Shown one piece after another: positions 16,291 through 39,761 of a DNA stretch of 64,000 nt (positions are counted from its first letter, which is position 1; each line of letters opens with the position of its first letter). Below the pieces are notes generated by a model. It was not told the origin of the DNA. It saw only the letters and a program-made list of their open reading frames with translations, and ran no database searches. The stretch is from positions 13,538,466-13,602,465 of the forward strand of contig NC_092322.1 of NCBI RefSeq assembly GCF_036785885.1. Direction: 5' to 3'. Source of the stretch: Coffea arabica. Taxonomy: Eukaryota > Streptophyta > Magnoliopsida > Gentianales > Rubiaceae. Position numbers and translations under genes: made by a program.

Positions 16291-17840
16291 TTAATCTTTT
16301 TTAAGAATTTTGATTCCTTTCCAACGTGACTCCATGCGATGAGAAGCATCATCTTGTGTATAAACTCCACACTTGAAGAAATGGTCACTTCCACCTCTCC
16401 CATCAGTTTCAAACATTTGCACTCCATCAATGAAAACTGTGACTTTGCTAGCTTCCACATCATGAATTACATTGAGTCTGAACCACCTGTTGTCGATGTT
16501 AGGGACTATGACAGGATTTTTATAGTATGAGAGGTTTCCATTGTAAACTCTAAGCATTAGAGTCGTAGCATGAAGCTGTGCTCCAAAGACTTGCATGATG
16601 CACACACCAGATGTTCCAGATGGCACATATCCATAACCTTCAAATTGCCAAACCCCCGAAGAATAATCGTAACCCTGAGAGCAAATTAGTGAGAAAAAGA
16701 TAATCACCATGTTTCTTTTAATCTGTAGAAGGCCCACAAAAAAGAAAGGGCGAAAAACAAGATGTTAGAGATACATGCTACTTTTATTTCTTTAAGCTGT
16801 TATTTGGGCTTTAGGAGGCTCAGGTTATACCAAATATATACATGGTTTGGAAAAACACAGCAGAAGATTGTGTATTTAATAAAACAAAAAGTGATTGTCT
16901 TGTCTTCGAAAGCTCATCGGTCTTAGGATGTTTTCCTCCCTTCTTTCCTTTAGATTCGGATTTTTGCTTTAGATTCCGCTTCTTGTCTTCAATTTTTTTT
17001 TCTTTTCAATAATTGATAAGTTGTGTAAGTCTCTTGACGAGGAGCTGTTTATTGTTTGATTATTTCATCTGATTATATATTTTGATTTTTAATGATCAAT
17101 TTTTGTTTTTTGGGTTGATGTTCTCGTCTAGTACTTTTGCGTCTAGGTTTTATATTTTTCTAATAGCAAAGAATTTAATACCAAAGACTAGTTTTGATTA
17201 ATTTTAATTATTCTCTATTTCAACAAAATCTACTGCAATCGAGAACAAGCTGAAAACCCTTCACTACTTTGCAGTGATCTCTTTGTAATTAATTAACTTG
17301 ATGAATGATTTCAAACCTTGTGCCTCGAAGCCTATTAGCTAGTGAAATGATCACGCTGTGTGCTTCAAAATTCAAAAGGTGCAAAACTTTTTCGTGTTAG
17401 AGAAGGTCCAAATTCAGAATTTACCCTTAAATTTTCATATAAGCACCATACGTAATTGCTTTTACAAAACATATGCAGCCTTGCTACTTTTTTTTTTGTT
17501 CCATATAAAACTTGACCAATATGGCAATCATAAATTTAGCTGCAATATGTAAACTTACCTCTATACGAAGTTCAGTACGAGGTCTGGTATTGCTCGCAGG
17601 AAAATGAGGTTTATCGGTATCGAAAACCCACATTTTATGAACTCCATCAACGTACGAATATCGCTGATCTACTGGCACGTTATAAGGTCTTTGAATTTCA
17701 AAGTTTGATTGATTTAGTGGAAGAGAAACGAAGCCATCAGTTGGATCAACAACCTTCAAAGCTTCTGTTTTGTGATATATTGTTACATTGATGAAAAGGG
17801 TGAGCAAGAAAGTGGTTAAAAGCTGAGGAGAAGAGGCCAT
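16291..17840 (-). CDS. Citrate-binding-protein-like gene 1 (alginate-lyase-2 fold), subfamily A
   Basis: Two exons: 17559-17840 (94 codons, donor GAG|GTAAGT) and 16291-16674 (acceptor CTCAG), phase 0, 221 residues. The family includes the Hevea latex citrate-binding protein and has an alginate-lyase-2 (PL7-like) beta fold. An N-terminal hydrophobic signal peptide (about 1-27) predicts entry into the secretory pathway. Family marks: DPTDGF, the N-glycosylation sequon NQS (about 43), RPRTELR (about 87-92, matching the PL7 R-T/S-E-L-R motif), MQVFG (Gln122-Phe124) and FFKCGVYTQ (Tyr199). Phe124 stands where PL7 lyases have catalytic His, so binding rather than lyase activity is likely. A TATAAATC at about 17902 fits a start about 30 nt upstream of the ATG. 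It is the only complete subfamily A member (LPLNQSNFxIQRPY). Confidence 0.88.
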
Positions 17841-19139
17841 TGAGTTTGTTTTAGATGAAATGTCGATGGAAGAGAAAAGCTAATCAGGGCCTGAGATTTA
17901 TAGGCAGCCTACAATTGAAGATGCAGATTAATTAAAAGATGCCATTGCATTCATTGGTCTATTAGATATTCTCATGGGGTGAAATCCAGAGGCAATTAAC
18001 CTTTCTTTTTACTGAAGAATTCTTTACGTTCAGTTGATGTTTCAGTTGTGGTATGTGACAAAATTTCAGTCAGAGGATTTACAAAGTATTTGGAGAGAAA
18101 CCAAATTGTTGGAGAACAGAATCAAACTTACAATGTTTCCTTTGAGGTGTACATTATATTAAGGTTTTAGTGTTACTGCTTTCTATCAAATAAGATACTA
18201 AGGCTCTAGTTAGATTCTTGTGTTGGTGTCTTTTTTTAAAAAAAAAAAAAAAAGAAATTGCTATATTGAGGGGCAGAGCTACATTAACAATTTTGCAGAG
18301 TTTATAGAATAATCATAAAAAATTTACAGAGTTTTTAGATTTTTGTCACGATTGCTCCCCTCAATTCTAAGAAATATCCTTCTGATCCCTTGAAATTCCC
18401 CACCTATATTTTGAAAAATCCTATTCCCCAAATAACCAATAACTTTAGATATCTCTCCTTTCGGTACAATTGTTTCAAAGCTAATTAAAGAAAAAAAATT
18501 AATACTACTTGAATAAGTAACAAATTTATAAAAATGTAAAAATGACTTAAAAATAAATACATAATTTCAAATCAAAATATCTCATTGCACAGTAATTTTA
18601 TCATTTTTAATGTACAACATTGTCTTCACTGACCAAAGGTTCTGACTCCATCATTGACTATAAAACTTTTTTTGCATAAAAGTATATTAAAAAAAGGATT
18701 AATTTTTTTTATATTGACAGCGTATACACATTCACTTTTAGATGCATGACACATAATTCAAATTTAAATTTGAAATTCAAATTTTGCATATGTATCGTAT
18801 ATCTAACCGTGATAGTGTATACATCGTCAATATATATATATATATATAAGATTTACTCTAAAAAAAAAACGGAGTAGGAGTACCATTTTGAAAGTGTTTT
18901 ATAATAAGAGCGGAACCAAATAGTGAAGATCTGCTCGTGTATACAGTGAAGACATGCGAGACAATGATCCCCTATTAACCAGAGAATCAGGAAAATATAG
19001 TAGTTAAAATTATACTAAAAAAGATATTGAGCAAATTAGACAATTGTGGCATATAAAACGAGATTGTTTGTTAAGGAATTCAAATTAAAGTATGTTACTC
19101 AACTAGGGTAATTTTTTTTTGGACCTCAAAATCCAAATC
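17841..19139. other. Intergenic DNA between citrate-binding-like genes 1 and 2
   Basis: There is no gene. The promoter of gene 1 lies in about 17841-17905. A MITE is at 18696-18857, a poly-A tract at about 18238-18254 and a TA run at about 18830-18848. Confidence 0.5.
18696..18857. mobile_element. Small MITE, copy 2
   Basis: It starts GGATTAATTT and carries 'gacagcgtatacac', 'caaattttgcata' and 'gtgtatacat', matching the order of motifs in 1905-2062. The right half is eroded by a TA microsatellite. Confidence 0.65.
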
Positions 19140-19262
19140 ACAAAAAAAAAATAAAATTAAAATTAACAGCTCTACGTCCTTCCTACCCTCAATTGTTAGG
19201 CACAAGATTTGAACTCTGCATCTGACAGTGAAGATAACTGCCGAGCATATTCACCATAGAAT
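19140..19262 (-). mobile_element. SINE-like remnant
   Basis: On the minus strand a B-box-like GAGTTCAAATCTTG (about 19206-19219) follows the sequence CACTGTCAGATGC, and an A-rich tail lies at the far end (T/A run near 19142). A related sequence on the same strand is at about 41040-41145 (TACTGTCAAGTTCAGATTTC). No target duplication was seen, so this is an old or partial copy. Confidence 0.45.
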
Positions 19263-19748
19263 ACTGCAAACTAAATGTTAAGGGGTTTCTTTTCTGTCTT
19301 GAAATTGAAGTATTTATTGGAAAAAGAGAAAGTTGTCTTGTTAGAAGATATTCTTGCCTTTACAAAAGAATTTACAGAATGAAAAATGCTTGACTTTAAG
19401 ACTCAAATAATGCATGCAACTTCCATTCCAATTTGTCTGGGGGATAGCGCACTCAAGAAGTAGAAAAAAGAGTAGCACGCTACAAATAATACGGCAACAA
19501 CTATTAGGGTGGTGCATACCCCTCAATCCACGCACAATCAAGAAACTGCGTGTCTTGAAAGTTGAAAGCAACCCATTCAAGACACCCCAATTGGTCAACT
19601 GAACAAAAAAGGAAGTATATTAGCAGTTGGTTTTATTAAGAAACTTAGATGGATCGAGACAAACAGGACGAATTGGTAAACAACGTTGTTGTTGTTCATC
19701 AAATCAGGGGATACGGGGGAAAAAACGACATAATTACAGCATTCTTTA

Positions 19749-20845
19749 AACACTTGCATTATGCACACACCAGAAGTTCCATTTGGAACAAATCCGTACC
19801 CTTCGAATTGCCAAATTCCCGAAGAGTAATCATAACCCTGACATGAAAATTAGCCAAAATTTCTAGCTTAAATGTGTTCTGTAACAATAGAAGAAAGTGT
19901 AAACTTAAAATTTCTATAACTGTGGAACATGTTGAGACTATTTAAAGTTTATCAGATTTTCAATTAGTCAAAACTAAGAAGTGTATTCATCTTTATGATG
20001 TACTCTATAAAAATGTCTTAATAAACAGGTCAGAGTCTATGTCTAATCCCTCAACACATCAATGTGGTTTTTTCTTTTTTTCTTTTTTTAGAAAAAAATA
20101 GGGATAAAGTTAAATGTTCCATACATGTGCTAAATTGAACTAAATTCTCAATTATATGATATATATGATGCCCTTAATTATTAATGGACAAAAAAAGGAA
20201 CCTCTAATTTCGTATATATCTCACTTTGTCACTTATTTCACTAAATTTTCTAAACATTATTGCACGTATAAAAAATTTGAACATACGAGAAAAAATATTA
20301 AAGAAAAAGGGACCATTGTTGGCAGAAATAATTATCAATTTCATTTTTATATCTTCTTTTTTCAAAAGCAGACTTTTCTCTTTTATTCATCAAAAAAAAA
20401 AAAAAACGTACATCATAAATAAATTCTAAATACGAAGACTCTAAATACATCACTATACTCTATACAACCCAAAAAAAAGACAAAAAACAGAAGAATTGTG
20501 ATGAAAAATTCTGATTCTGTTTCATATCTTGTCAAGGGTATATATATACATATGATGGAATTTGTATATACACATAAATAAATTTGTAGATACTGCAGAA
20601 TATATACTTACAAGTATACGGATTTCTGTACGAGGTTTAGTGTGACTTTCAGGAGAATGAGGTTTATCAGTCTTGAAAACCCACAATTTATGCACTCCAT
20701 CAATGAAGGAATAACGTTGATCTTCGGGCATGTCATAAGGCCTTTGGATTTGGAAATTTGATTTCTTTAGAGGAAGTGAGCTGAAGCCTACAGTGGGATC
20801 AACAGCCTCCGAAGTACCAAAAATCTTGATGGAAGAAGCTGCCAT
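19749..20845 (-). pseudogene. Citrate-binding-protein-like gene 2, subfamily A, exon 2 truncated
   Basis: Exon 1 (20612-20845, 78 codons) is open and ends in a good donor (CTT|GTAAGT). It has the subfamily A signature LPLKKSNFQIQRPYD and KPRTEIRI, but lacks a normal signal peptide (MAASSIKIFGTSEA before VDPTVGF), and the N-glycosylation sequon is lost (KKS). Exon 2 starts correctly at 19837 (GYDYSSGIWQFEGYGFVPNG) but homology ends after about 30 codons, near 19749. The remaining ~100 codons, including the FKCGVY motif, are not found downstream. A TATATATA lies at about 20930. It is best read as a decayed gene. The truncated product could not form the complete beta fold. Confidence 0.85.
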
Positions 20846-21195
20846 TACTGCTTACTAATTAAGTTAACTAGAAGATTAAATATGCCTTAATGCAGTGACG
20901 ATGGAAGAATAGGAGTTTCACGGTTCTATATATATAGTTAAAGGTGCTGGCTGAAATATTCATTTTGAAGCTTTGTTGTCATCAGAGAATTCCTTTGTGT
21001 CCCAATCGCTATTATCTCTTCACAGGAAATTACATCCAAGAGTTAACTATCCAGGTAAATAATTCATTTGTACGAAAATCCATGCAAGTTGAATATCCAC
21101 CATCACAAGTAAGTTTGGACATTGGATTCTTTCAACATCTTTTTTCCTTTTCTTCATGGGTTTTTTTTTTTGGTTGTTGGTTTTTTTCTTTTTTT

Positions 21196-21226
<31 letters not shown>

Positions 21227-22232
21227 TGTGGGTGTGGGGGAGGTAGATTCTTTTAATTGAACCCGAACAAATTCATGAAAGATATTCCCCAGCCCTCTGA
21301 TCTTTTCTCACATAAATAGTAACCTGCCCTTTTCCTAGAAGCCAGCAAATGAAAAGGAACCTAGCAATAGAAGATTGAGACCAGTATACGAATCCACAAG
21401 TGGAGAATTAGAATTAAAAACTTTAACAGCTGTCTAAAAAGAAAAGATACCACATGGTGAAGGTATGTACCCATCTCATCTGGTCCTTCGTGACTGAATT
21501 TCATGGGTGGAACAACGAAGGGTCGCTGAGGTGACACTGAACCAAGTTCTAAAAATTTAGGTGTTTCTTCCTTGAAATTGAAAATTTTCTGAAAAATATT
21601 TTATAGATTTCAATTTTTGACCTTGCAAAAACATGAACAAATTTTTTGTAATAAAACTAAAAATTTCCCCCTCAAAGTAATTTTTCTAGTTCCATCAATA
21701 TATGCTGAATTTGTCATGGTAGAATAAGGAATATAGTGAAAGAAATATTTGCAATTGAAGCATATGCCTTCTAAAATACCATAGCCAAAGTTAGTCTTAT
21801 CCCAACTTAGCTTGGTCAGATGCATTTAAGTGTAGCTTTGCCTTCCAATAATCCCCAGGACAGACAATTTTTTTTTTTTTTTTTTTAAAAAGAAGGCATT
21901 TCGTTTTTGTTAATCAGATTAGTTAACCATATAACAAATTAATCGAAACAAATAAAAGGGGCTAGCATGCCTTAATTATAAATTTGAGGAGGAAAATAGA
22001 CAATGAAACCGAACCTAAGGGGACAAACTGAAAATTAACATACTCAGATTTGGCTGGGAAGGACCATTGGAAACCAAATTTGTTAGTTGAGGAACGTAAT
22101 AAACACTTTCAAAAGTTGAGGGACCAAATAAAATCTCGGGCAAAAATTGAGGGATCTTTGAAATCGTTTACACAATCACTTTACCTAACCAAAAATAGGT
22201 TTTGCTCCAATACGTTCTGGTATTTTTCACTA
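20846..22232. other. Intergenic DNA with extreme poly-G tract
   Basis: No gene is recognised. It contains a T-rich stretch followed by 29 consecutive G's (21198-21226) and a poly-T/A junction at about 21870-21890. Confidence 0.5.
21198..21226. repeat. Poly-G run of 29 bases
   Basis: An uninterrupted run of G follows a T-rich tract and precedes 'tgtgggtgtgggggagg'. Such a run can form G-quadruplex structures. It may also be a sequencing or assembly artefact, since G is the no-signal call in two-colour short-read chemistry. Confidence 0.95.
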
Positions 22233-22371
22233 ATCAAACTTCACCAGCACTAACTAATGCCTTTTCCATTACTTCAATACAAAAGAAGTAAAGACAAGTG
22301 AAGTAGTTTGGCAAAGGCGAACTAAATCCAAGGCGAACTAAATCCAAGGCGAATATTACAAGGAAAATCAA

Positions 22372-24171
22372 TCACATTTGTTTAAGAACTTTGATTCCCT
22401 TCCAACGTGACTCCATATAGTAAGAGTCACCAACCTGTGAATACACTCCACACTTGAAATAATGTGAGTTTCCACCTCTACCAGCTGCTTCAAATGTGAA
22501 AACCCCATCAATGTAAACCTTCAATTTGCTAGCAGCCACCTCATGGATTACATTAACTCTGAACCACCTATCATATATGCTGTGTACAAGTACGTTTGCT
22601 TGTTCAAAGTATGTAAGGGATCCATTGTAAACCCTAAGCATTAAAGTTGTGTTATGAGGTAGGCTTGCTCCAAAGACTTGCACGATGCACACACCAGAAG
22701 TTCCATTTGGAACAAATCCATATCCTTCGAATTGCCAGACTCCCGAGGAGTAAATATAGCCCTAAGACGTAAGAATGAAGTAATTAGTGAGCTCAAAATT
22801 AATTTGTCATCTCAATTAGAGTAATAGTTAATAGGAGAAATGGTAAAGAAACAATACTCCTGTTTAATTCGTCTTTTAGTACTTGGTAGTGGCGAGCCTT
22901 ATTACAATGATTGTGTTTTTTGTTTTTCTCATCTTCAATAGGATTGTTTATTGAACGAATTGCACCCAAAAGCTAGTACTTCCAGGCGGACTCACATTTT
23001 TATATTGAATAGATCTGCAATAAATTCCATGTTATGTGATAAACAATAAAAGAGACCCTGGAAGTTTACAAGTTTTCCCTTCTTGCCTTCAAACAAAAAT
23101 TAAATAAAAGAGACCCGGCAAGGAATTTTACAAGTACAAAAAAGGATATAAAATAACTATAAGTGAAATCTATAGCCTTGTTTTCAGTTGCTCTAGATTT
23201 TGCAAAATTCGATTATGGAAAGTGATTGTAGAGAATAATTAGAATTAGTAAAAACTACTCTTAGGTGGATTATGGATTTTAACTTTTTGGCTATTAAAAA
23301 ATTTATAATCGAAATACGAAAACAAACAAGAACACCCAAAAACTGATCATCCAAAATCAGAATGTAAGCTAAAATGATCAACGTAGAACAAGCTAGTGAT
23401 ACCTGGATTATGAAAGAGAGCCACTCATGAAGATTTTAAATGAAAAAAAAAAATTTCTCCTTTTTGTTCTGTTTTAAGATTTTTTGTATTGAAAAAGAAA
23501 AATGTACCTGAAAATAGGGAAACAGAAGAAAAATATAAAAGAAGAAAAAAACAGAATAATTTTTCCAAACTATCAGAGGTAGTCCTTTATCACCTGGAGT
23601 TCTTGCTTCCCCAGGAATAACAGTAGAAGATTATAATTACCCTATGCAGTACAACAGAAGAAAATATATAATATCGGCTTTAAAAAAAAAAGACGAAGAG
23701 ATAATTCTTTAATCAAGAAGAAATTTAAGATGCAAAAGGAACATCTGTGGACTTTCATAAGAATCATTACCACATTAAAGCACAAAAAATAAAACATGTA
23801 AAGCACTAAAGCATAAAAACCTAAAGTAGTCAGTAAGAAATTAAATAGAAAAAAAAAAAACAAGAAAACGAGGGATTTACCTGGATCATAATTTCCGTTC
23901 GTGGCATCGTGGGACTATTCCGAGACAAAGGGTTATCTGTGGAGTAAACCCAAAGTTTATGCACTCCATCTACGAAGCTGTATCTTTGGTCTACAGGGAG
24001 GTTATACGGTTTCTGAATGTGATAAAAGGATGTATTAAATGGGAGTTCAACAAAGCCATCAGTTGGATCAGTTGCGTATACTATGGCAAGTTGAGAAGTA
24101 TACAAAAGAAAAAAGGCTGAGAAGAAAAGGAAAATTACACGGCAAGTAGCCATCCCTATGTATTGCTTCAT
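22372..24171 (-). CDS. Citrate-binding-protein-like gene 3, subfamily B
   Basis: Exon 1 spans 23881-24171 (MKQYIG start) or 23881-24153 (MATCRV start), with donor CAG|GTAAAT. Exon 2 is 22372-22761 with acceptor CTTAG. Phase 0 gives 226 or 220 residues. The second Met begins a cleaner signal peptide, but MKQ is conserved in gene 4. Visible marks: signal peptide, DPTDGFVELPF, N-glycosylation sequon NTS, PRTEIMIQ, VQVFG (Phe in place of PL7 catalytic His), GRGG, YFKCGVYSQ and the ending MESRWKGIKVLKQM. Exon 2 opens GYIYSSG instead of GY(D/N)YSSG, a substitution unique in the cluster. A two-residue difference (FEQAN against Y-RAN) separates it from gene 4, its closest relative by tandem duplication. 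The intron is about 1.1 kb. The protein is predicted to be secretory and glycosylated, with an unknown ligand. Confidence 0.87.
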
Positions 24172-25165
24172 GCAATAAATTTTGGTATTTGTAGAGCCCC
24201 TTAACCATATCATGGCTCGGGACAAAATAAATGTAAGAAAATATAGGTGCTATAAAGTACTGGCCATATTGAATACTCTCATTTGCAGTGAGATCATAAG
24301 CATCCAAACGCTGGCAAGATGATTGCAATCAATCACGTATAATCTCAATTCATTGATGTAGTGACTTCACATTTTGGACCTCTTTCTTTAAACGATAGCT
24401 AAACTTTGTGTTGTTTGTTGATAGTAACAACACCTTGTGCTATAACATTTTCTGTTTGTATGGGGTTAGTTAATTGGTAAGAGCTCTACACTTTGTGAGA
24501 AAGATATTTTTTGCTATTTTGGAGCTACTAAACTTTGGCTTTTTAGGCCTTGCTATTAAATATTGCCGCCTTCTATCATCAGAATTTAACTTTTCAATTA
24601 GTACATAAAATTTAATATTGAACATCTTCTTGTTATTGGTTAATTAAAAGAGACTCCTTGAAACTACTTCATTCTTTGGAAGGTTCATTCAAAAATTAAG
24701 ACTTTCATGGTCCAAATTCTTACTTGACATAAGATCTAACAAAAAGGAAATCTAAAGTCTAATTAGATGACAATATCCTGAGTTTGGTGGCATTTTCATC
24801 CATCCAAATAGACATGATTTTAACCATTTTTGGAGAGAAAATCATATTATGATTTAAGGTTTTAGATGTTTGTATGACTCTAAAGGACCTAAATAGTTAT
24901 ATACCCGACTACAAATCACTTGAAATTTTTTGTTATATGACCATGTCTATTTAGTATTTTCCAGTTTGCTTTTACCAAGAGAACCTAGCTTTCGGTCTAC
25001 AATAGTCAATGCGCCTCCCCGAGATGTTACAGCAACATTTGGTCTTTTCTTGCCAAAAACATTAATTGACCTGCCGTTTAGTCACAAAAATTAAAGACAT
25101 TTAAACATTTCGCTTACACGTTCTTTCATCTTCTGTCTATCCTCGGGTTCTATAGTAAAATTATA

Positions 25166-25532
25166 CTACCTCCATCCCATTTTGATAATTTTATTTTTCT
25201 TTTTCATCCGTCCGAAATATAGCTCACTTTCCAATTAAATAACATAGTTAAATTTTAACTTCTTTAAAATGCCCTTATATAATATATTTTGCTATCACTG
25301 AATAAACCTACCTTATTCATTAATTACTTTGATTCATGTTTTAAATGGTGCAACTTTCTATTAATATTACTATTGTTATTAATATAACGGTATAATGGTT
25401 AGTTATACTGATAATATTCATATAAGGGTATTTTAGAAAAATAATAGGTTGATTTACTCTTTCAATAAAGTTAAATAATTTTTCTTAAATTGTGTGAAAA
25501 AAATCAAGACTTTCAAAGTGGAACGGAGAGAG
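25166..25532. mobile_element. Stowaway-type MITE
   Basis: The ends CTACCTCCATCCCATTTTGA and, inverted, CTCTCTCCGTTCCACTTTGA are flanked by TA on both sides (25164-25165 and 25533-25534). This is the classic Tc1/mariner-derived Stowaway pattern. It is absent from the paralogous position in duplication copy B, so it inserted after that duplication or was lost from B. Confidence 0.85.
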
Positions 25533-25598
25533 TAATAGAAATTTCTATACATATCGTAATCATATGTTTTACTCTCCAACTCTTTATTATAGGTATTA

Positions 25599-25740
25599 CT
25601 CTCTCTATCCTACTTTGATAGTTTTGATTTCTTTTCCCACACAATTTAAGAAAAATTAGTTAACTTTATTGAAAGAGTAAATCAAGCCTGTTCTTTTCTT
25701 AAAATACCCTTACATTGATATTAGGAGTACGATTAATCAC
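25599..25740. mobile_element. Stowaway MITE fragment, opposite orientation
   Basis: It begins TA|CTCTCTCTATCCTACTTTGA and matches the reverse complement of the right half of 25166-25532 for about 130 bp ('cacacaatttaagaaaaatt', 'gaaagagtaaatcaa'). Its other end is missing. Confidence 0.75.
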
Positions 25741-26179: not shown

Positions 26180-26182
<3 letters not shown>

Positions 26183-27323: not shown

Positions 27324-27799
27324 GGGCAAAATATACTTTATCCCCCTGTGATATAGCTATTTTTCACATAACACTCCTATAGTTTTAAAAACTATATATA
27401 ACCTTCTCATAATATAGATTAAAATACCCTTATTTAAAAACTAAAATGGTTGAAGTGATCAAAATATATAAATATAACAAGCATGACACTCTAATTCCTA
27501 CGATTTGATGCTTTACCATATAATCCCCTTATGGTTTAGTGCTTTACCATATAACCCCCTTATGATTTTCTAAAAATAAAAAAAAATATATATATATATA
27601 TACATAATCCCCCTCTGTGGTTAATAAATAATTTTTAACTTTACATTTTTGATATTTTAGTTGATTCCGTTATGGATTCAAATTCCGTTACTTTGACACT
27701 TTAATCCAAATCATGAGGGGATAATGTATAGCTTTTAAAACCATGAAAGGGTTATATAAAAAAACACTAAATCACAGGAGGACAAAGTGTAATTTGCCC
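27324..27799. mobile_element. Mutator-like MITE, 472-bp family, diverged copy
   Basis: The termini are GGGCAAAATATAC and AATTTGCCC, with a perfect 9-bp target duplication TAAATATAA at 27315-27323 and 27800-27808. The interior shows the family's repeated 'ataaccccctta' units in inverted arrangement. It is more diverged than the copies at 31.6 and 32.8 kb, so it is probably the oldest of the four. It lies between the two segmental-duplication copies. Confidence 0.92.
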
Positions 27800-28098
27800 T
27801 AAATATAATGAGTACCAGCTAAAAAATTTTTCTTTTTGTTTTACCTACTTTGATATAATTTAATCATTTGAGTATTTTTTTTTTTTAGCTTTGTTTCTCG
27901 TGTCTATTTTATCTCTTGCACTTTTTGGCTGATTTCTCATGCATTGCTCCATATAAGTAAAGCTTCACAAGCATTAAGTCATTGACTAGTACCTTATCCA
28001 TTACCTCAACACCAAAGAAGTAACGACAAGAGAAGTAGTTTGGCTTTAACATGCCAAACGTAAACTAAATCCAAGACAAATATTACAAGGAAAATCAA

Positions 28099-29859
28099 TC
28101 ACATTTGTTTAAGAACTTTGATTCCCTTCCAACGTGACTCCATGTAGTAAGAGTCACCAATCTGTGAATACACTCCACACTTGAAATGATGTGAATTTCC
28201 ACCTCTACCAGCTGCTTCAAATGTGGAAACCCCATCAATGTAAACCTTCAATTTGCTAGCAGCCACATCATGGATTACATTAACTCGGAACCACCTATCA
28301 TACACGTTGGGTACAAGTACATTTGCTCTATAGTATGTGAGGGATCCGTTGTAGACTCTAAGCATTAAAGTTGAGGCATGAGGTGGGCTTGCTCCAAACA
28401 CTTGCATAATGCACACACCAGAAGTTCCATTTGGAACAAATCCATATCCTTCAAATTGCCAAACTCCCGAAGAGTAATTATAGCCCTAAGAAATAAGAAT
28501 CAAGTATTGAGTAAGCCCAAAATTTGTTGTCTCAATTAAGTGTGCTAGTTGATAGGAGAAATGGTTAAAAGACAATACTCCACTTTTATTTGTCTTTTAA
28601 CACTTGGCAGTGGCAAGCCTTAGTATAATACAGTTATTCTTTGTTTTTCCCTTCTTCAATAGAAGTGTTTAGTGAGCTAATTGAACCCAAGAGCCAGTCC
28701 TTCTGGGCAGACTAACACTTGTAAATTGCATAGATTTGTAATAAATTCTGAATTACATGGCAAACAACAGGAGAAACCCAGCAATGAATTTGATAGGGAT
28801 ACAAAAGAGGGTGTAAAATAATTATAAGTGCAATCATAAGCATTTTCTCAGTTGCTCTAGATTTTGCAAAATTCGGTTGCTCTAAATTTTGCAAAATCTG
28901 ATTAAGTATAAAAAGTAATAGTAGAGAATAATGAGAATCAGCCAAAGTTACTTTTGGTAAATTGTTGAATTTACTTTTTTCTATTATTAAAAATATATAA
29001 TTTAAATACCGAAGCAAATGAGGGTATAAGAAATTGATTATTCAAAATTAAAATCTTTAATCAGCTAAATAATTAGCCAATAACAAGTCCATAATACCCA
29101 GATTGTGAAAGCGAGCCATCTTATGAAGATTTTGAATAACAATTATTTTCACATTTTCATTCTATTTTAAATATTGGTATTGAACAAGGAAATAAGTACT
29201 TAAAAAAATGGAAACAGAAGAAAGAGACAAGAGAAGAAAGAACCAGTATAATTTTTCTTAAGTATCAGAGATAGTCCTTTATCACATAGAATTCTTGCTT
29301 CCTCACGAACAACAGTAGAAGATTATAATCACCACATGCTATACCATAGAAGAAGATACATAAAATTGTGGCTGAAAAAAAATGAAGAGAAAATTCTTTA
29401 ATCATGAACAAAGTTAAGATAGAAAAGGAGCATCTGTAAACTTTCATAAGAATCATTACTACATTAAAACAGCAAAAATAAATATGCAAAGCACTAAGAA
29501 TCAAAACCTGAAGTAGTGAATGAGAAATTAAATATAACCCAAAAAAAAAAAGAATATGAGGAATTTACGTTGATCATAATTTCCGTACGTGGCATCGTGG
29601 GACTATTCCGAGACAAAGGGTTATCTGTGGAGTAAACCCAAAGTTTATGGACTCCATCTACGAAGCTGTATCTTTGGTCTACAGGGAGGTCAAATGGTTT
29701 CTGAATGTGATAGAAGGATGTATTAAATGGGAGTTCAACAAATCCGTCAGTTGGATCAATTGAGCATGCTGTGGCAAGTTGAGAAGTACATAATAAAAAG
29801 GGCAGGAAGAAATGAAAGATTAAATGGTAAGAAATAGCCATCTCTGTCAATTGCTTCAT
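28099..29859 (-). CDS. Citrate-binding-protein-like gene 4, subfamily B
   Basis: Exon 1 is 29569-29859 from MKQLTEMAIS, or from 29841 if the second Met is used, with donor AAC|GTAAAT. Exon 2 is 28099-28485 with acceptor CTTAG. Phase 0 gives 225 or 219 residues. It has a signal peptide, DPTDGFVELPF, sequon NTS, PRTEIMIN, GYNYSSG, IMQVFG, a second sequon NGS, GRGGNSHHFKCGVYSQ and the ending KGIKVLKQM. A TATAAATA sits at 29881-29874 (minus strand). Transcription starting about 30 nt downstream would begin near or past the first Met codon, which favours the second Met (29841) as start. It is a tandem duplicate of gene 3, roughly 87% identical in exon 2 by eye. Product predicted secreted, with family-level ligand (organic acid or glycan) only. 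Confidence 0.88.
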
Positions 29860-31305
29860 GCAAGAAATTTTGATATTTATAGAGCCTTAACCACATCATG
29901 ATTCCGGACAATATACATGTAAGAAAAGATAGATGTAAAGTGGCCGTATACAATACTCTTAGTGTGTGATGAAATCTCAAGCTTTCAAAATCATGCAAAT
30001 GATCTCAATTCATTGATATAATGACTTTACATTTTGGACCTCTTTCTTGAGAATGATAGCCACACTTTTGTGTTGTTTATTGAAAGTAATAACAGCTTGT
30101 GCCATGATCTCTTCCGTTTGTATGGGGTTAGTTAATTGGTAAGAGCTCTACACATGATGAGAGATATATTTTTACGATTTTGGCACTATTAAACATTGGC
30201 TATTTAGTCCTTGCTTTTAAATATTGCCGCCCTCCATCATTAGGATTTAGCTTTTTAATTAGTCTATAAAATTTAATTTCGAATATTTTTCCTATTATTG
30301 GTGAATTATATCGAGTCTCCTTGAAACTATTTCATTCTTTGAAAGGTTCAATCTACAATTTAAGACTTTCTTAGAACAAACTTCTCACTTGCCATGAGAT
30401 CTAATAATAAAAAAAAAAAATCTAAACTCTGTTTAGATGACATTATCTTGAGTTTAGTTGCATTTTCATCGCTTCAATTAGACATAATTTCAACTTTTTT
30501 TGGAGGGAAAATAATTTTTTTAGTTTAAAATTTTAGATGTTTGTGTGGCTTTAAAGGATGCAAGTAGTTATTATACCCAAGTATTAATTACTTGAAATTT
30601 TTTGTTTACGAGACTATGTCTATTTCAATATTTTTATTTTTTCTTTACGAGACTTTGCCAGTTTGGTCTACAATGGTCAATGTGCCTCCCCAAAATGTTA
30701 CAGCAGTATTTGGTCTTTTCTTGACAAAAGCATTACTTGACTTGCCTTTTAGTGACAAAAATTAAAGACATTTATACACTTTCTTCTCATCTTCTATCTT
30801 TCCTCGGGCTCTTTAGACATATTAGAATAGAAAACTTATCTAACAATCCACAAAAAAAAAAAAATAATAAAAAAAATTGAAGAGTATTTTGCCTTTCTCT
30901 TAAACTGTTTATTATAGGTATATTTGTCAACAGTAGTATCGAAAGGCCAAAAAAAAAAAAAAAAAAAAAAAAGTAGTATCGAAAGGCCAAAAATTTATCT
31001 GCCATTTGGAGGCAATTTCTCTCCAACGATCAATCCCAATTTCGGATGATCCCAAGAAACCAAAGAAGATTCATCAGATTGGGAAAAAAATTTAGTGCCA
31101 TCATCGAACAGCTAATATTCAAATTAATAACATATCAGTAAGTTGGTTTTTGAGATTCAGTTCAGCGGGTATAGAAATTTAATTCTCAAAATTTTCAAAA
31201 ATATTGATTTGGTAAATGAGCATGTAAATTAACTTTTTTTTTGGTAAATGAAATTTATTATATTGCTCTCCAATTTTTGTGACGTGCTTATTTGTCCTTT
31301 TTTTT

Positions 31306-32257
31306 GGGTAAATTTCACTTTACCCCCCTGTGGTTTAGTAATTTTTTACATAACCCCCTTATGGTTTCAAAAACTATATATAACCTCCTCATGGTTTGGA
31401 TTAAAGTGTCAAAATGACGGAAATGATTATTCGCAATGAAGTCACCTAAAATGTCAAAAATACCCTTATGTAAAGTTGAAAATTATTTATTAACTAAAGA
31501 GGGTTATGTGTATATTTTGAAAACCATAAGGAGGTTATATGGTAAAGTATTAAACCATAAAAAGGTTATATGGTAAAATATAGGGTAAACTCCACTTTAC
31601 CCCCCTGTAGTTTACCCTTTTTTTACATAACCCCCCTATGGTTTCAAAAGCTATACATAACCCCCTCATGGTTTGGATTAAAGTGTCAAAGTAACGGAAA
31701 TAGTCACTCGTAACGGAACTTCTAAAAATGTCGAAATTACCCTTATAAATACATGATACATTAACCCCCTATGATTTTTATATTTTACCATATAACCCCT
31801 TATGGTTTAATATTTTACCATATAACCCCCTTATGATTTTCAAAATATACACATAACCCCCCTTGGTTAATACATAAATTTCAACCTTACATAAGGGTAT
31901 TTTTGACATTTTAGGTGATGCCGTTACGAGTGACTATTTCCGTTATTTTGACACTTTAATCCAAATCATAAGGGGATTATATATAGCTTTTGAGACCATA
32001 GGAGGGTTATGTGAAAAAACGCTAAACCATAGGGGGGTAAAGTGGAATTTGCCCTAAAATATAAAAATCATACGGGATTAGTGTGTCATGTATTTATAAG
32101 GGTATTTTCGACATTTTTAGAAATTCCATTACGAATGACTATTTCCGTCACTTTGACATTTTAATCCAAATCATGAGGAGGTTATGTATAGCTTTTGAAA
32201 CTAGAGGGGGTCATGTAAAAAAATGCTAAATCACAGGGGGTAAATTGCAATTTGCCC
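31306..32257. mobile_element. Mutator-like MITE, 472-bp family, outer copy split by a nested one
   Basis: The termini are GGGTAAATTTCACTTTACC and, inverted, GGGCAAATTGCAATTTACC. The flanks are CT8 and T9 (8 of 9 match). Removing the nested element and one target repeat (481 bp) leaves 471 bp, the family's length. It lies inside segmental-duplication copy B, and copy A lacks it. Confidence 0.9.
31583..32054. mobile_element. Mutator-like MITE, 472-bp family, nested copy
   Basis: The ends are GGGTAAACTCCACTTTACC and AATTTGCCC. A perfect 9-bp duplication TAAAATATA is present at 31574-31582 and 32055-32063, lying within the outer copy. It is very similar to 32752-33224, indicating recent activity of the same subfamily. 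Confidence 0.95.
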
Positions 32258-32751
32258 TTTTTTTTTTTTCAATCTATAACTGCTTCATCATTCAGTTGAA
32301 TTGTTTTTTGTATACTGAATTTTAATGGGACAATAAGGGCATACTTTTTATAGAATCTCGTATCCTTTCGTCTTATAGGTAACTAATCATATTCGTTAGC
32401 TCGCCATTTAAAAATTTTGGGTATTTCACTGGGGACGACCACTCTACATCTAAGCTTCCAATGTTCCTCAATCCGTCAAAGGGCTACTTCAACAAGATTG
32501 AGTGCTGAACTGTATTCAAGTTGGCCTGAAATGGGAAAAGAGAAGTGTGTATGCCACGTCCCTTGTAGTTATTTTGTATTTCTTTTCTTTTTTGGATAAT
32601 TAAAAATTTGGATAATTTCGCTTTAATCACCATCACGAGTCAGGTTAGGCCTTGAAATTATATATAGGTCACTTAAAGGGTATTTACAAATGATTTACTA
32701 ATACAATTCTCACATCGATAACACGATTTTAGTATATGATTTTTTTTATTA

Positions 32752-33224
32752 GGGCAAACTCCACTTTACCCCCCTGTAGTTTAGCGTTTTTTCACATAAC
32801 CCCCCTATGGTTTCAAAAGCTATACATAACCCCCTCATGGTTTGGATTAAAGTGTCAAAGTAACGGAAATAGTCACTCGTAACGGAACTTCTAAAAATGT
32901 CGAAATTACCCTTATAAATACATGACACATTAACCCCCTATGATTTTTATATTTTACAATATAACCCCCTTATGGTTTACTACTTTATCATATAACCCCC
33001 TTATGATTTTCAAAATATACACATAACCCCCCTTGGTTAATACATAAATTTCAACCTTACATAAGGGTATTTTTGACATTTTAGGTGACGCCGTTACGAG
33101 TGACTATTTCGGTTACTTTGACACTTTAATCCAAACCATAAGGGGGTTATGTATAGCTTTTGAAACCATAGGGGGGTTATGTGAAAAAACGCTAAACCAC
33201 ATGGGGGTAAAGTGGAGTTTGCCC
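32752..33224. mobile_element. Mutator-like MITE, 472-bp family, young copy
   Basis: The ends are GGGCAAACTCCACTTTACC and GGAGTTTGCCC. A perfect 9-bp duplication TTTTTATTA is at 32743-32751 and 33225-33233. Inverted arms extend about 150 bp to 'gtcactcgtaacgg' / 'ccgttacgagtgac'. There is no coding capacity, so it must be moved by an autonomous MULE elsewhere. Confidence 0.95.
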
Positions 33225-33383
33225 TTTTTATTATGAAGAAATGGTCTGTTTTCAACATTGACAGCATCCATGTCAAACTTTTTATTACTTATAACAGATA
33301 ACTTTTATTCCACGAAAAGAAAATAGGCATTAACATTCCACACTTAAACCAAAGCCCAACATATAGATCATAAAAGAAACAAA

Positions 33384-34408
33384 TTACATTTTTTTTAGGA
33401 TTTTGATTCCTTTCCACCTAGATTCCATGTAGTAAGAAGCATCAGGTTGTGAATACACTCCACACTTGAAATAATGAAATTTTCCACCTCTTCCAGGTGC
33501 TTCAATCACTTGAACCCCATCAATGTAAACCGTCACTTTGCTGGCATCTGCATCATGAATTACATTGAGACGAAACCACCTATCATAGATGTTTGAAACT
33601 AGGACAGGAGCTCTATAGTATGAAAGGGTTCCATTGAAAAGTCTGAGCATTAGAGTTGTGGCATGAGGGCTTGCTCCAAAGACTTGCATGATGCAGACAC
33701 CAGAAGTACCATTGGGAACAAATCCATATCCTTCAAATTGCCATATCCCCGAAGAGTAATTATAACCCTGAGAAGCAAATCAGCACAAAAATTAACATGT
33801 CACATGTTGTATTTCACATGTAGCAAAAGGATTTTTCCCGTCCATACATGCAATTCAATTTGTACTTAAATATATATTTTCTTGATCTAATTTCATACGT
33901 ATTTATAAAACTTGGTACACTTGTTTCTAAGTATCATGTGTTACTCCATAGACTATGCTACGAAAAAATGTGCTAAAATTCAAAACAAAAAAGGGCAATT
34001 ATGAAATAGTTACTCTAACACTAATAATATTGTTTTGCTAATTGATCTATATCTGTTAACTTAAGATATGGGAACAGAAGTGTAAAAACTGGAAAAGAAT
34101 TGGAAGAGATAAAGGGATTAATAGTGATTTACTTGGATTATAATTTCTGTACGAGAATTTGTAGGACTATTCTTAGCTAAAGGCTTGTCAGTGGAGTAGA
34201 CCCAGAGTTTGTGAATTCCATCAATGAAGCTGTGTCGTTGGTCTACAGGGATATCATATGGCTTCTGGATGTGATAAAAGGATGTATTAAATGGGAGTTC
34301 AACAAATCCATCTGTTGGATCAGTCGGTCCTCCAATAGCAAGCTGAATACTTGCTAGAACAACGACTAAGAGGGAACAGATGATATTGTGGTAAAAGCTG
34401 CTACCCAT
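33384..34408 (-). CDS. Citrate-binding-protein-like gene 5, subfamily B
   Basis: Exons: 34133-34408 (92 codons, donor CAA|GTAAAT) and 33384-33767 (acceptor CAG), phase 0, 219 residues. It has a signal peptide (MGSSFYHNIICSLLVV...), DPTDGFVELPF, NTS sequon, SRTEIIIQ, GYNYSSG, MQVFG, GRGGKFHYFKCGVYSQ and ending KGIKILKKM. The intron is only about 365 bp, compared with about 1.1 kb in genes 3 and 4. TTATAAGT near 34446 may be the TATA element. The solitary exon 1 of gene 6 lies 408 bp upstream on the same strand in the same splice phase, so exon 2 here could in principle serve both first exons. Confidence 0.88.
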
Positions 34409-34815
34409 CTCTCGACCTTAAGACCAAGAAAATTTTTGTGGTACTTATAACAACGTATTGAAAGTAACAATGAGAGAAGAAAAGTTGGTGCTGCATCGGC
34501 AATTGTAAAGGCGATTACATGACAGTGTTATCTGTGATTTAGATTGGGTCGCGTTTAAATTGTCAAATTCATTTTTTGAAATTCTTTTTAATTGTGCGGT
34601 CTCGATCTATGCAGCATCAGCATGGCCGAACTAATGAATATGAAATTCCATTTTGAAAACGTACCAAAAACAACAAAGTAAAAGTTAGTTCTTTGACCAT
34701 TGAATTATTACAACGTTGCTTTTTTTTTTTCTTTATTCTTGTGAAATGGTACATATGTAATAGCACAAAGCCGGTACATAATAAGTTATGTACGTAATCT
34801 GCAAATAATACTTGC

Positions 34816-35106
34816 ATGTATAAGAATTTCAGTACGAGCATGTGTTTTGCTTGTAGGAGTATGAGGTTTATCAGTATTATAAATCCACAACCTATGAACT
34901 CCAACAATGAAGGAATAACGTTGATCTTCCGGGACATCGTAAGGCCTTTGAATGACGAAGTTTGATTGATTTAGAGGCAGAGGATCGAAGCCTTCAGTCG
35001 GATCAAACCCCTTCTCACCCTCTGCTTTGTGATCTAATGCTATCTTGATGAAAAGGGTGATAAAAATGGTTAAGAAGAAGGAATTTGCCATGGCTTGCTG
35101 GGCCAT
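34816..35106 (-). pseudogene. Citrate-binding-protein-like gene 6, subfamily A, exon 1 only
   Basis: This open exon of 97 codons (MAQQAMANSFF...) has a signal peptide, DPTEGFDPLPLNQSNF, RPYDVPEDQRYSF, SKTHARTEILIH, and the NQS sequon. The splice donor is CAT|GCAAGT, a GC-type donor or a mutated GTAAGT. No matching exon 2 lies before gene 5's exon 1 (34408). It is either a relic or an alternative first exon spliced to the gene 5 second exon (33384-33767), phase 0 in both cases. TATATA occurs at about 35130. One substitution, VGVHR for the usual DGVHK, alters an otherwise conserved motif. I favour a relic. Confidence 0.8.
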
Positions 35107-37351
35107 ATATTGTGAAAATTGATCTGTATATAGTGTAGAATCTTGACTATGTATAGAAACCTAGGAATGCATGGGGATTATGTCTAGCTGAAGTTGCACG
35201 TAAAATAGCTTCAAATTTTAATTTCAGATATAAAGGAATTGAAGGTTGTTGATTTCAGTATTTTTTTTTCTCAAAGAAAATGTGTCAGCCTTACCAGTTT
35301 GTATGAATTTTTATGTTAATTATCCATGAAAAAACATGTTAGTTAGATACTTCAAGAAAAAACATGTTAAATATCAAACCCCTTCTTTTTCTTTTTTAAT
35401 TTTTCCTCCTTTATCATTTACTCATGCTAAATCAATTGTATTTATTTAGGACCAAATATTTAACAAATGGAAACAAAGAAATATTACATCTTGTCTTTTT
35501 TCTTTTCTTTTTTTTTTTCCATTTTTAACAAGTGATGCTAATAGACTAGTATTTTATAAAAATCACCTTATTGGTACGGCTTGAACAGTTCATTTCAGGA
35601 GTTTCAATAGCTTTTCCTACTAAGGAGTTCAATAATTAATACGTGCTAAGACTCACATATTTATTCAATGAGCCATGTATAACATAATTTGAATTGTCAA
35701 GAAATTCTCTTGTAATTGTGATAATCTTGGATTTACAATGGAACCAGTCTAGAACATGACCGGTTTCAACTGTAATTTTATATATTCCTCGTATAAAAGT
35801 ACTTCTATTTTATCCCAAGAAAACTGAAGACGAGATAAGTACAAAAGTTGCAGGCCAGCGTTTTGGTTTTAGTTCTCTGTTTTTACTAGTTGACAGCTGA
35901 TAATTCATTGAAAAACCAAAAACATGAAAAACAAAAATAAGCAAAGAAAAACGAACGTAGTCATCTGCCTCTGTTTAAATCAGGTGCGTAAGAACGAGTA
36001 TAAATTAATTCTCCAATTCCCATTTATAACTTCTCTGTACATTCACCCTGTGAAAATGACAATGCAGGTATCTGGACAAGAATCATTTTGGTAAAGTAGA
36101 AGTAAAAAAATCATGTGAAATGAGGTTTGAATAATTTTTTCCTTGGATCAAAAAGTGATAAAAAAAATTTATTTGTCTTCTTGTATCTTGTCATATCATA
36201 CCTTCTCCTTCCAAAATTGAACTTGTTTGTTTGATCCAGTTGCATTAAAATAGACAATGATTTGTAATCTGCTTTACACATAAACAGACAAATATATGTA
36301 TCATATGTAATTTGGACAAGTCAAACAAGAGAAAAAGTCAAATAGAAAAGCTCTAAAAACCTTTTAAGATTAATGGTAAGAAACTTACAAAATCATGTGA
36401 AGAGCAGTTAGCAAGAACTTGACCTTTTTCCATAAAGCTAGTTTAAAAATCATAAACTAGTCTTCTTCTTGTTTGCTGCATTATACACTTTATCCCTAAC
36501 CATGACAATGTAATGACGATGTGACATTTTGTTCTAACTATGATCCCTAACTTTTTTGACCTGTTGCCCGTCATTATTGATTTGTATGGTTTTAGTTACT
36601 AATCTTATTAGCAAAATTAGCAAGATAAAAGATAGTGCAAATTAATGATAATGTATTGTTCTATTTTTGTTATGATACCTTGCTACCTTTGGACCGCCTT
36701 CAGCACACGTTATCATTGATTTGTTAGGTCCTCTATACCATTAATTTTCGCTAAAGCTGTCATTGACTATATTTAAATAAGACAAACTTGAGAATTTAGG
36801 TTGCAAAGTGTCCAAAATTAAGAATTTAGCATATAAATTGTTTAAAATTAAAATTTATGGTGCAAATTGAAAAAATTATACAAATTCAGGGATGCAATGT
36901 GGAGTTCGTCCTTTGAATTAAGAACTTTCTAGGTTTAATTTAAGTACCAAATAATCACCTCAATTAAAAGCATAGGTTAGTATGTATTACTTCGGATTGG
37001 AAGCAAGAGTGCTAAGAAGCAGAGCCAAAGATGATATTAAGCCTTTTTTTTTAAGTGATCAAGTAGGATATCATATCAGCTTCTGCTTTGAATATGCTTT
37101 TCTTGCCTTCCTAATATGTTTTATGACTTGCATTAGTTATTAATATTCAAGAGACTTACCTATTTATCCTCAACACACTGTCTTTTCTTGTCATATTGTG
37201 CCATGGAAGCCATATACCAGGAGGGTTGCATTAACGGCTAAGGTGAAGTATAGATAAGAAATTATTTCCCAAAGGTAATATTGTAGTCGGTGGATTTTAC
37301 ATATTCAATCAAATGTTCAGATTACATTGAATTATTTCCTTCTTTATTTTT
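35107..37351. other. Gene-free stretch
   Basis: AT-rich sequence without a recognisable gene, RNA or clear repeat boundary. Confidence 0.45.
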
Positions 37352-37560
37352 GAACTTAGCTCCTCGAGGGGATTCTTTCTCTCCATTTTTCATAGTACAC
37401 ATCTGGATGAATGACACGTGTCTTCATTTATTAACAAGTGTTAAAATTAATCAAATTTAAAATAATTATATCCCTTCTTAATAAATAAAAACACATATCA
37501 TATATTAGATGTGCATTGTCAAAAATGGAAAAAGAATCTATTGGAGAGGAGCTAAATCCC
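37352..37560. mobile_element. Short Mutator-like MITE
   Basis: This is a 209-bp foldback with inverted arms of about 50 bp: GAACTTAGCTCCTCGAGG on the left against GGGATTTAGCTCCTCTCC inverted from the right, both continuing to 'ggattctttctctcc'-like and 'acacatc' sequence. The 9-bp flanks TTTATTTTT and TTTATTTTC match at 8 of 9 positions, pointing to the Mutator superfamily. Confidence 0.8.
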
Positions 37561-38920
37561 TTTATTTTCTTTTTCCATTACATCTTAGCGTCATACTAAG
37601 ACTCTTTCTTAGTAACGGAGAAAGAAGGAAAGAAAAACGAGCAAGATGGCCACCATGGTCTCTTTTCTCTGTTTATGTGTATGTCTTTTCGGCTTTTTTT
37701 CGATAAGCTATCAAGCGGAAAACCCAAAACAAAGAAAACCGAAACAATTTCCGACTCTACACATTGAATATGTTTATTCTTCAGTTTTCATGGTCTAACG
37801 AGGAAAGTACAAAAAAGCAGTTGAAACCTGTGTGATCATGCACTAACCTCATTCCATTGTAAATCAAAGAATATCCCTATGAAGATTACTTCAAAACAGT
37901 TTGAACAATGTTAAAGCGAGCCAAATGTAGCAAATATGCGAGTTTCATTATTCACATCTATTTTCATATGCACTGACTGATAGATATGAGATTAGCACGT
38001 CAATTATCATCGGCACTCCATATAACAACGTGCCTATGGGTTCAATTCAATCTTGGGGTTGGTCAATCATACTGTTTCACAAATTAATCTGCAAGAGTCT
38101 ACAAGTGAACTGGGCAGTAAATATACGTTATCCTTACAGCTAAGATGATAGATACGCTTTTTTCTTCTAATAATCAAGTAACATATAGCTTATTGATGTG
38201 AAGACTAAGCCATCTGTTAATCTCAAAGTCAATCGGGCAGTAATTAACTACACATATTTTACACCTAACAGCTAAGGAGATAGATGCATTTTTTCTTTCA
38301 AGAACCAGGTAATTAACATTGTCCTTAAGCCATCTGTCAATTGTAAACAATTTTTGTGGATTTATGAAAAGAGCCACAGCTATGCATACTATACATTTGC
38401 TTATTTCTTGTTTTCTTTCGCTTAAGCAACCTGCTCAGGAGGCAAACTAGCTATAGGGAGAAATCCCGAAGTTAATGTAACTTAGGGCACATTCTGTGCT
38501 CTATAAATATAAATAAGATTCAAACTCCCAACTTGTCATTGAAGAAAGTATTAAATTCAAATGTTTGAATAGGTTGGAATATCATTATTTAGAAAGTGTA
38601 CGAAGAATCAGTATTGTCCATATGTCCTTTACACAACTTAACTTTTCTCTTCTATGGATATAAATTTCTGTGTCTTGTACAAAGATTAGATGTACGTACC
38701 AAGATTGCATTATGATATTAAACAATGCTGTTTTACTGAACTTGCGTGACGTTGGCTCATGTTCAAACTAATCAAAAAGTTGAGAAAGTCATTTCCTTGG
38801 CCTTAGCAATTAAAAATTCGTGATAGTATGATACCATATGAGGAATCTAAGTAGGTTTAATTTTCTATAAATCCCTTCTCAGGTATTCATTGAAGTCCAC
38901 TACTTTGTTCATGGTAAGAG
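37561..38920. other. Intergenic DNA upstream of citrate-binding-like gene 7
   Basis: No gene is seen. A TATAAAT at about 38869-38875 is well placed as the promoter element of gene 7. An internal similarity between about 38080-38170 and 38225-38290 ('gggcagtaa', 'gctaag.agatag') suggests a small local duplication. Confidence 0.45.
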
Positions 38921-39761
38921 ATGACGTCTTTTTCCTCAACCTTCTTGCAATTTGCCATTCTCCAATTCCTCTTGTACAAACTCCTCAGCTGTGAAGGACC
39001 CAAAGATCCATCCAAGGGCTTCATTTCTTTGCCTTTTAATACATCGTTTTACCACATTCAGAAGCCATATGATGTGCCTGTAGATCAAAGATACAAGTTT
39101 GTAGATGGAGTTCACTATTTGTGGGTTTTTTCAACCGACAAACCACACACTCCCACTAGTCATACAAAACCTCGAACCGAGATTGGGATACAGGTATGAA
39201 AAATTCTATTGCCTATCCATTCTTTGACAAAAATATGCTCAAATGTAGAAAATTGTTCATACCAGTAGGTTTGGATACATAACAGGTAACATTCATATAA
39301 TTTTTAGATACTCTAAAATTCTTTCCAACATTCGACACCAATATGAATTTTATTTTCGCCAATTCTTGTAGGGGTATGACTATTCTTCAGGTGTATGGCA
39401 ATTTGAAGGGGATTTTTACGTGCCATCGGGGACATCAGGTGTCTGCATCATGCAAGTTTTCGGGGCAACTGCTCCTCATGCCACAACTCTGATGCTTAGG
39501 GTTTACAATGGCTCACTCTTTTACTATACGGATTCTGTTCTGGTTCCAAGCGTCTGTGACAAGTGGTTTCATCTAAACGTGGTTCATGATGTTTTAGCTG
39601 CAAAAGTGAAGGTTTTCATTGATGGCTGTCTAAAGATTGTCGCAGATGGCCGTGGAGGTACCTCACATACTTTCAAATGTGGTGTTTATGCTCAAAATGA
39701 GGATTCTTATCGCATGGAATCACGATGGAAGGACATAGAAATTCTAAAAATAAGAGATTAA
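38921..39761 (+). CDS. Citrate-binding-protein-like gene 7, subfamily B, opposite strand
   Basis: Exons: 38921-39193 (91 codons, donor CAG|GTATGA) and 39372-39761 (acceptor TGTAG), phase 0, 220 residues. This is the only cluster member on the plus strand and has the shortest intron (178 bp). Marks: signal peptide MTSFSSTFLQFAILQFLLY, DPSKGFISLPF, NTS sequon, KPRTEIGIQ, GYDYSSG, MQVFGAT, FKCGVYAQ, ending DIEILKIRD. It departs from the others at GVHYLW (His-Lys elsewhere), FIDGCLKIVADGRGG (an extra Cys) and GDFYVPSG. The TATAAAT about 50 nt upstream and the intact frame argue for a working gene. It is the most distinct subfamily B member. Confidence 0.88.

Follow-up and report, generated by a model that had tools for sequence, protein, structure and literature searches.

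The closest described relatives of the Coffea arabica gene array analysed here are the PL7 alginate lyases, for which three sequence motifs have been defined, RxE(L/V)R, Q(I/V)H and YFKxGxYxQ (PMC11960938). In these enzymes the Gln contacts the C6 carboxyl group, the His functions as general base and the Tyr as acid (PMC10488352), and exchange of the His for Asn, or of the Tyr for Phe, in one bacterial PL7 lyase domain made activity undetectable (PMC6165035). The array was found in a 64,000-nucleotide stretch of DNA (C13:13538466-13602465, where C13 is contig NC_092322.1; hereafter referred to as the window), and in all its intact genes a Phe occupies the place of the general-base His. C. arabica is an allotetraploid, and land plants are not known to make alginate. 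A plant member of the family, the citrate-binding protein (CBP) of Hevea, is said to have been studied through photoaffinity labelling by Rentsch et al. in 1995.

Our favoured reading, to which we give roughly even chances, is that the array encodes secreted, mainly non-lytic glycan-binding proteins of PL7 descent, and not citrate carriers. The proteins would be secreted single-domain members of PL7 (Pfam Alginate_lyase2) that lack the general-base His, whereas the carboxylate-binding Gln, the Lys and the Tyr that acts as acid are still in place. Their role would be to bind rather than cut an acidic polysaccharide of cell-wall or microbial origin in the apoplast, with a mode of action similar to that of a carbohydrate-binding module or a lectin, and they may act in the wall or in defence.

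Catalytic motifs of the array genes

The second motif reads QVF instead of Q(I/V)H in all 14 intact array genes, i.e., the seven on C13 (g1, g3, g4, g5 and g7 in the window, A and B to the left of it) and the seven on the homeologous contig C14, whereas the eight paralogs on contigs C19 and C20 all have QIH. The fixed loss of the general-base His across the intact array, beside QIH paralogs in the same genome, is the new observation of this work. The FKxGVYxQ segment of the third motif, with its Lys, acid Tyr and final Gln, is retained in each of the 14 genes. In three window genes (g1, g4 and g7) the first Tyr of that motif has given way to F, H or T, and the full motif is therefore present in the window only in g3 and g5. 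As for the first motif, RxE(L/V)R is found in one of the five intact window genes (RTELR in g1), and g3 and g4 (both RTEIM), g5 (RTEII) and g7 (RTEIG) depart from it; RTE(L/V/I)R is kept in g1, A and B. A pair of Cys residues, in GVC and FKC, is limited to g1, g3, g4, g5 and g7.

Altogether, the array and the C19/C20 family are distinguished by eight fixed differences, two of which are located within the lyase motifs (His/Phe 122 and Gln/Ala 199). Residue 66 (g5 numbering) is His in 14 of 14 array genes, as well as in six of six bacterial domains with QVF described below, and Arg in all eight QIH genes.

Bacterial relatives and module context

A tblastn search of plasmids returned one Streptomyces protein with 37% identity, and when genomes were scanned with two short peptide patterns, 29 of the 65 candidate stretches proved to be relatives. 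The His is absent in all 30 bacterial relatives, which carry QIL (22), QVL (1), QTL (1) or QVF (6); the 24 with QIL, QVL or QTL are actinobacterial. That loss of the His is unique to the array is not supported, as six bacterial relatives also have QVF. These six are located on contigs labelled Phycisphaerales, Phycisphaera, Planctomycetia, Chthoniobacterales, Chitinophaga and uncultured bacterium, but five of the six domains are 94–100% alike, which makes the contig labels doubtful and reduces the number of independent cases to about two.

Two of the six QVF domains reside inside LPMO polypeptides, one of them together with GH9, whereas the plant proteins are single-domain. In the first (L053), a single reading frame contains LPMO_10, CBM2 and Ig domains followed by the PL7-like domain, and the upstream gene, incomplete at the edge of the contig stretch, encodes GH9 and CBM3. 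The second (L057, positions 1667-5497) is a 1277-residue frame that combines LPMO_10, the PL7-like domain, CBM2, Calx-beta and GH9. Among the other four, a dockerin is present in L055 and an Ig domain in L056, L054 has a dockerin-like stretch that narrowly misses the Pfam cut-off, and L058 is interrupted by the contig end. The bacterial relatives with the same His change include parts of cellulose-degrading enzymes, which suggests binding of cell-wall sugars, and the fusions point to cellulose-associated wall glycans as candidate ligands.

Among bacteria the QVF module is rare: when three phyla were sampled (387, 392 and 396 genomes), the sole strong match was the starting genome, with weak matches in five other genomes (E 1e-10 to 1e-4). 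A plasmid search with L057 as query returned the same Streptomyces record only, and a PADLOC scan of L057 gave no matches. The weak matches L073–L079 were discarded because they lacked FKxGxY in a pattern scan of long frames, and a viral relative (L001, 29% identity) was discarded because the matching frame, located among phage-like frames, lacked the motifs on inspection by eye.

Phylogeny and structural models

In an unrooted tree of 33 rows, drawn with a midpoint root and including 11 of the 30 bacterial relatives, the plant genes (95/93) adjoin the QVF domains of bacteria, and nesting of the QIH genes within the array genes is weak (83/79). Monophyly of the 14 plant genes with QVF was neither supported nor rejected in an approximately unbiased (AU) test on the same 33 rows (p-AU 0.353). 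When rooted with four canonical PL7 sequences, a tree with 10 of the 30 bacterial relatives unites these (98/95) next to several branches of plant genes; L085 was excluded from it by a motif filter. Neither L089 nor L088, a duplicate of the L057 locus, was included. With canonical PL7 the root is not resolved, and we therefore make no claim on the order of His and Phe or on the direction of transfer between plants and bacteria.

AlphaFold2 models of L053 and of exon 2 of g1 are essentially all-beta, with predicted local distance difference test (pLDDT) scores of 94.9 and 88.3, respectively; the latter model excludes residue 66, which is encoded by exon 1. In the L053 model, RTEMR, QVF, YFKCGVY and the equivalent of His 66 are all positioned within strands. 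The structure alignments A4 and A5 contained 17 and 15 of the 29 bacterial loci from the genome scan, respectively. The fold may be the beta jelly-roll of PL7, and both this identity and the way in which the side chains face are inferences.

Glycan binding versus catalysis

Several observations weigh against the glycan-binding reading. Lysis could persist without the His if another residue, such as His 66, served as base, and the placement of bacterial modules in degradative enzymes is equally compatible with catalysis and with binding; in addition, the independent cases behind the module context number about two and come from metagenome assemblies. Nor do the QIH genes conform to the canonical motifs throughout, since all eight C19/C20 genes have Ala in place of the final Gln of motif three. 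Furthermore, the motif position is variable elsewhere in the family: among five other Verrucomicrobial PF08787 proteins, four have QIH and L085 has QLK, a further loss of the His. In sequence, the family is distant from the PL7 proteins of solved structure: the best E value was 0.0016 over part of the domain and 0.061 with another profile, and no match was obtained with g5 alone or with the window genes alone. A vacuolar location may still apply, and a soybean relative, which ranked within the top five chitin-repressed genes of one comparison, speaks against a uniform role in defence (PMC11133457).

The alternative that survives best, although we regard it as rather unlikely, is that the proteins still cleave polysaccharides as lyases, by an altered mechanism in which the Tyr alone or His 66 serves as base and the substrate is perhaps a glucuronan or pectin of the plant wall and not alginate. 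Conservation of the motifs extends to R-T-E, Gln, Lys and Tyr, with the first motif kept more fully in g1, A and B, and bacterial QVF domains are found in degradative enzymes. Purifying selection equals that in the QIH genes (see below). In addition, the gel-liquefaction assay used for diatom PL7 domains scored a domain of a sister family, exolytic according to nuclear magnetic resonance, as nearly inactive and hence overlooked it (PMC11960938). On the other hand, the His-to-Asn exchange removed detectable activity from the bacterial PL7 domain mentioned above (PMC6165035), and g3, g4, g5 and g7 are without another motif Arg. His 66 is present in every gene that lacks His 122, and Arg in every gene that has it, but on the tree this pattern counts as a single change, without recurrence.

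If the proteins are indeed non-lytic glycan binders, the CBP-like entries in lists of stress-, pathogen- and mycorrhiza-responsive genes, where the family name derives from one photolabelling study, would gain a testable function. The presence of the QVF array and the QIH paralogs in one genome makes the two states directly comparable. A wider proposal, which we put forward tentatively, is that the QVF lineage constitutes a class of glycan-binding modules derived from polysaccharide lyases and common to plants and a few cellulolytic bacteria via horizontal transfer. The catalytic His would have been abandoned and either His 66 or the carboxylate cleft put to a new use, and in plants the class would have become a stand-alone, tandem apoplastic family.

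Organisation of the array

An earlier note on the window, made from its sequence, had described seven loci spread over 23 kb, six on the minus strand and one on the plus strand, with a shared phase-0 intron and five intact genes of the alginate-lyase-2 family. These coordinates and the intron were reproduced: there are seven copies of exon 1 (six minus, one plus) and six of exon 2 (five full, one broken), all of one family, and a phase-0 GT-AG intron of 178–1119 bp separates the exons in all six two-exon loci. The five intact genes encode proteins of 219–221 residues with no internal stops, which score 75–99 bits against Pfam PF08787 (Alginate_lyase2; curated cut-off 29.7 bits), and chance motif matches are ruled out by these scores. 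The truncated g2 scores 40.7 bits, and exon 1 of g6 by itself 14.4 bits, which is under the cut-off.

Sequence features that fit the secreted or vacuolar glycoprotein proposed in the note are present as well. A rough hydropathy scan of the first 42 residues revealed hydrophobic 12-mers (mean hydropathy 1.85–2.98) near the N-terminus of all five intact proteins. N-glycosylation sequons number two to four per protein; g1 has three, of which one is located within the presumed signal peptide.

All loci except g7 are on the minus strand. In g1, exon 1 (17559..17840) encodes the hydrophobic N-terminus, DPTDGF and the retained RTELR, and exon 2 with the stop codon (16291..16674) contains GVC, QVF and FKCGVY. 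The broken gene g2 has a short N-terminus in exon 1 (20612..20845), with no evident signal peptide, and an exon-2 frame (19595..19837) in which homology stops after IMQVF at 19748; its counterpart on C14 is likewise broken. For g3, exon 1 is located at 23881..24153, with RTEIM and thus loss of the final motif Arg, and exon 2 with the stop at 22372..22761. The corresponding exons of g4 are 29569..29841 (RTEIM) and 28099..28485, the latter a full exon-2 copy with stop, and those of g5 are 34133..34408 (RTEII) and 33384..33767 (stop included). The solitary exon 1 of g6 (34816..35091) has a GC donor, and an exon 2 was looked for at this locus and not found. In-phase splicing of g6 exon 1 to g5 exon 2 would be possible in principle. 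On the plus strand, g7 consists of exon 1 at 38921..39193 (RTEIG) and exon 2 with stop at 39372..39761. Clustered direct and inverted repeats occupy 31301-33236, between g4 and g5, and 27324-27811, just right of g3; they consist of CCCCTTATGGTTT-rich units of ~31 bp and are perhaps a fold-back element.

While the seven loci stand, the extent given in the note (16291..39761) does not hold at its left end, as the intact genes A and B are located further left on C13, 3.3–11.9 kb before the window begins. The array thus continues beyond the window, which contains seven of nine loci, seven of the nine being intact. C13 and C14 are collinear at the array, with blocks that are 88.8–96.5% identical, and all seven intact genes have an intact counterpart on C14; a segment of ~0.8 kb that includes g6 (about 34783-35580) is missing from C14.

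In keeping with a Coffea origin of the assembly, an N-methyltransferase exon of the caffeine pathway on C1 agrees at 132 of 133 residues with PDB 2efj, the 3,7-dimethylxanthine methyltransferase of C. canephora, and its counterpart on C2 agrees at 124 of 133. A protein search of the 131-contig assembly (1.198 Gb) gave at least 70 exon matches, all on C5, C6, C13, C14, C19 and C20. The intact genes are 22 in total, 14 in the two arrays on C13 and C14, and eight elsewhere, four each on C19 and C20. Matches on C5 and C6 come from disrupted or incomplete copies, and those on C6 represent a decayed inverted copy of the 19–34 kb region of the window at 66–87% identity (matches of at least 200 bp, cross-matches between paralogs counted too).

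Age and selection

Synonymous divergence (dS) is 0.035–0.134 between homeologous array genes, and ranges from 0.76 to saturation between array paralogs, except for g3/g4 (0.23) and A/B (0.26). Most array duplications are thus old and, since the seven intact genes are present on both homeologs, the duplications predate the split of the subgenomes. A recent burst of duplication is ruled out by the dS values, again with the exception of g3/g4 and A/B; g3 and g4 lie within a tandem repeat of ~5.7 kb.

Pooled over homeolog pairs and left uncorrected, the ratio of nonsynonymous to synonymous differences per site (pN/pS) amounts to 0.152 across the seven array pairs, which show 67.8 synonymous and 36.2 nonsynonymous differences. 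It is 0.166 when the five window genes are pooled, and 0.148 across the four pairs of QIH genes on C19/C20. Six of the seven array genes are constrained individually at p<0.05, and g3 taken singly is not significant (p 0.085), all per-gene values being without multiple-test correction. The array genes are under purifying selection, and the selection proposed in the note is borne out in the form of constraint that preserves most copies.

Ordinary tandem birth-and-death, in which copies are kept by dosage or by chance and have no function apart from that of the family, appears improbable. Turnover is evident from the two broken loci of nine, from g6 on one homeolog only, and from the decayed inverted copy on C6 and further fragments on C5, and g3 fits this pattern inasmuch as its constraint is not significant. 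However, every intact gene is intact on both homeologs, the other six are individually constrained, and the fixed differences from the C19/C20 family include positions 122 and 199.

Neighbouring genes

The window contains further genes beside the array. A resistance gene of the coiled-coil nucleotide-binding-site leucine-rich-repeat (LRR) type is present in two frames on the minus strand at 3995-7469, beside the array (NB-ARC, E 1.4e-52, and Rx_N). Part of a UDP-glycosyltransferase gene (PF00201) adjoins the array on the plus strand at 14569-15426. On the minus strand, an LRR receptor-like frame of 895 residues is located at 41653-44340, with no kinase domain found in a Pfam scan of the frame, and an alcohol-dehydrogenase-like frame with ADH_N, perhaps a cinnamyl alcohol dehydrogenase, at 50158-50835.

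Comparison with known systems

CBP-like genes have been encountered in several expression studies. In potato challenged with Rhizoctonia, such a gene was up by log2 5.7 at 3 days post-inoculation and by 3.7 at 8 days (PMC8002989), and one was up in rice roots with mycorrhiza (PMC4534827). A CBP-like protein of tomato xylem sap was 26-fold up under Mn, beside pathogenesis-related proteins (PMC7700171). The expansion described in the earlier note is real, but its restriction to one lineage is not supported; CBP-like genes are named in tomato, potato, rice, citrus and soybean. Among the matches listed in our literature searches (subscription journals mostly outside coverage, and for one broad query 15 of 28,990 listed), none is by its title a study devoted to plant PL7-type proteins.

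That the proteins are tonoplast or vacuolar citrate-binding proteins aiding organic-acid transport or metal tolerance is the least probable of the explanations weighed here: CBP-like changes under Al or Mn have been described, but the tomato protein is found in xylem sap and predicted to be secreted (PMC7700171), and the responses to pathogens and mycorrhiza together with the bacterial cellulase context give no indication of citrate. Organic-acid binding, one of the functions suggested in the note, is neither favoured nor disfavoured by the present results. As a speculation, a carboxylate-binding cleft might explain why the Hevea relative was first captured with citrate.

Like the PL7 alginate lyases (e.g., the polyguluronate lyase 1UAI), the array proteins match PF08787 and have the RTE, Gln and FKxGxY motifs, and the model of a bacterial relative is predicted to be essentially all-beta. 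They differ in the His-to-Phe replacement, and in the loss of the final Arg of RxExR in g3, g4, g5 and g7. The tomato CBP-like Solyc11g005480 has, as in the present case, been described with an alginate lyase domain (PMC7700171). In C. canephora, a CBP-like gel spot assigned to Cc07_g16910 (theoretical 24.1 kDa and isoelectric point (pI) 9.29, experimental 20.5 and 9.18) was up 1.7-fold in hormone-primed explants (PMC11562780). Gene B (24.1 kDa, pI 9.28) matches it by mass and pI, not by sequence, and C13/C14 are the seventh contig pair, in agreement with the Cc07 label.

The A(n)-TMD family of Nitzschia sing1 is similar in that PL7 is expanded and many catalytic residues are substituted; the A-domains tested by gel liquefaction were inactive or very weak (PMC11960938). 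Unlike the array, where His-to-Phe is fixed in all 14 genes, the family belongs to a diatom, is multidomain and is tied to the use of alginate.

Expansins are free proteins in plants and are fused to cellulases in bacteria. The fold is unrelated to that of the array proteins, but the arrangement is alike, with a wall-type protein in plants and rare bacterial relatives located within cellulase polypeptides.

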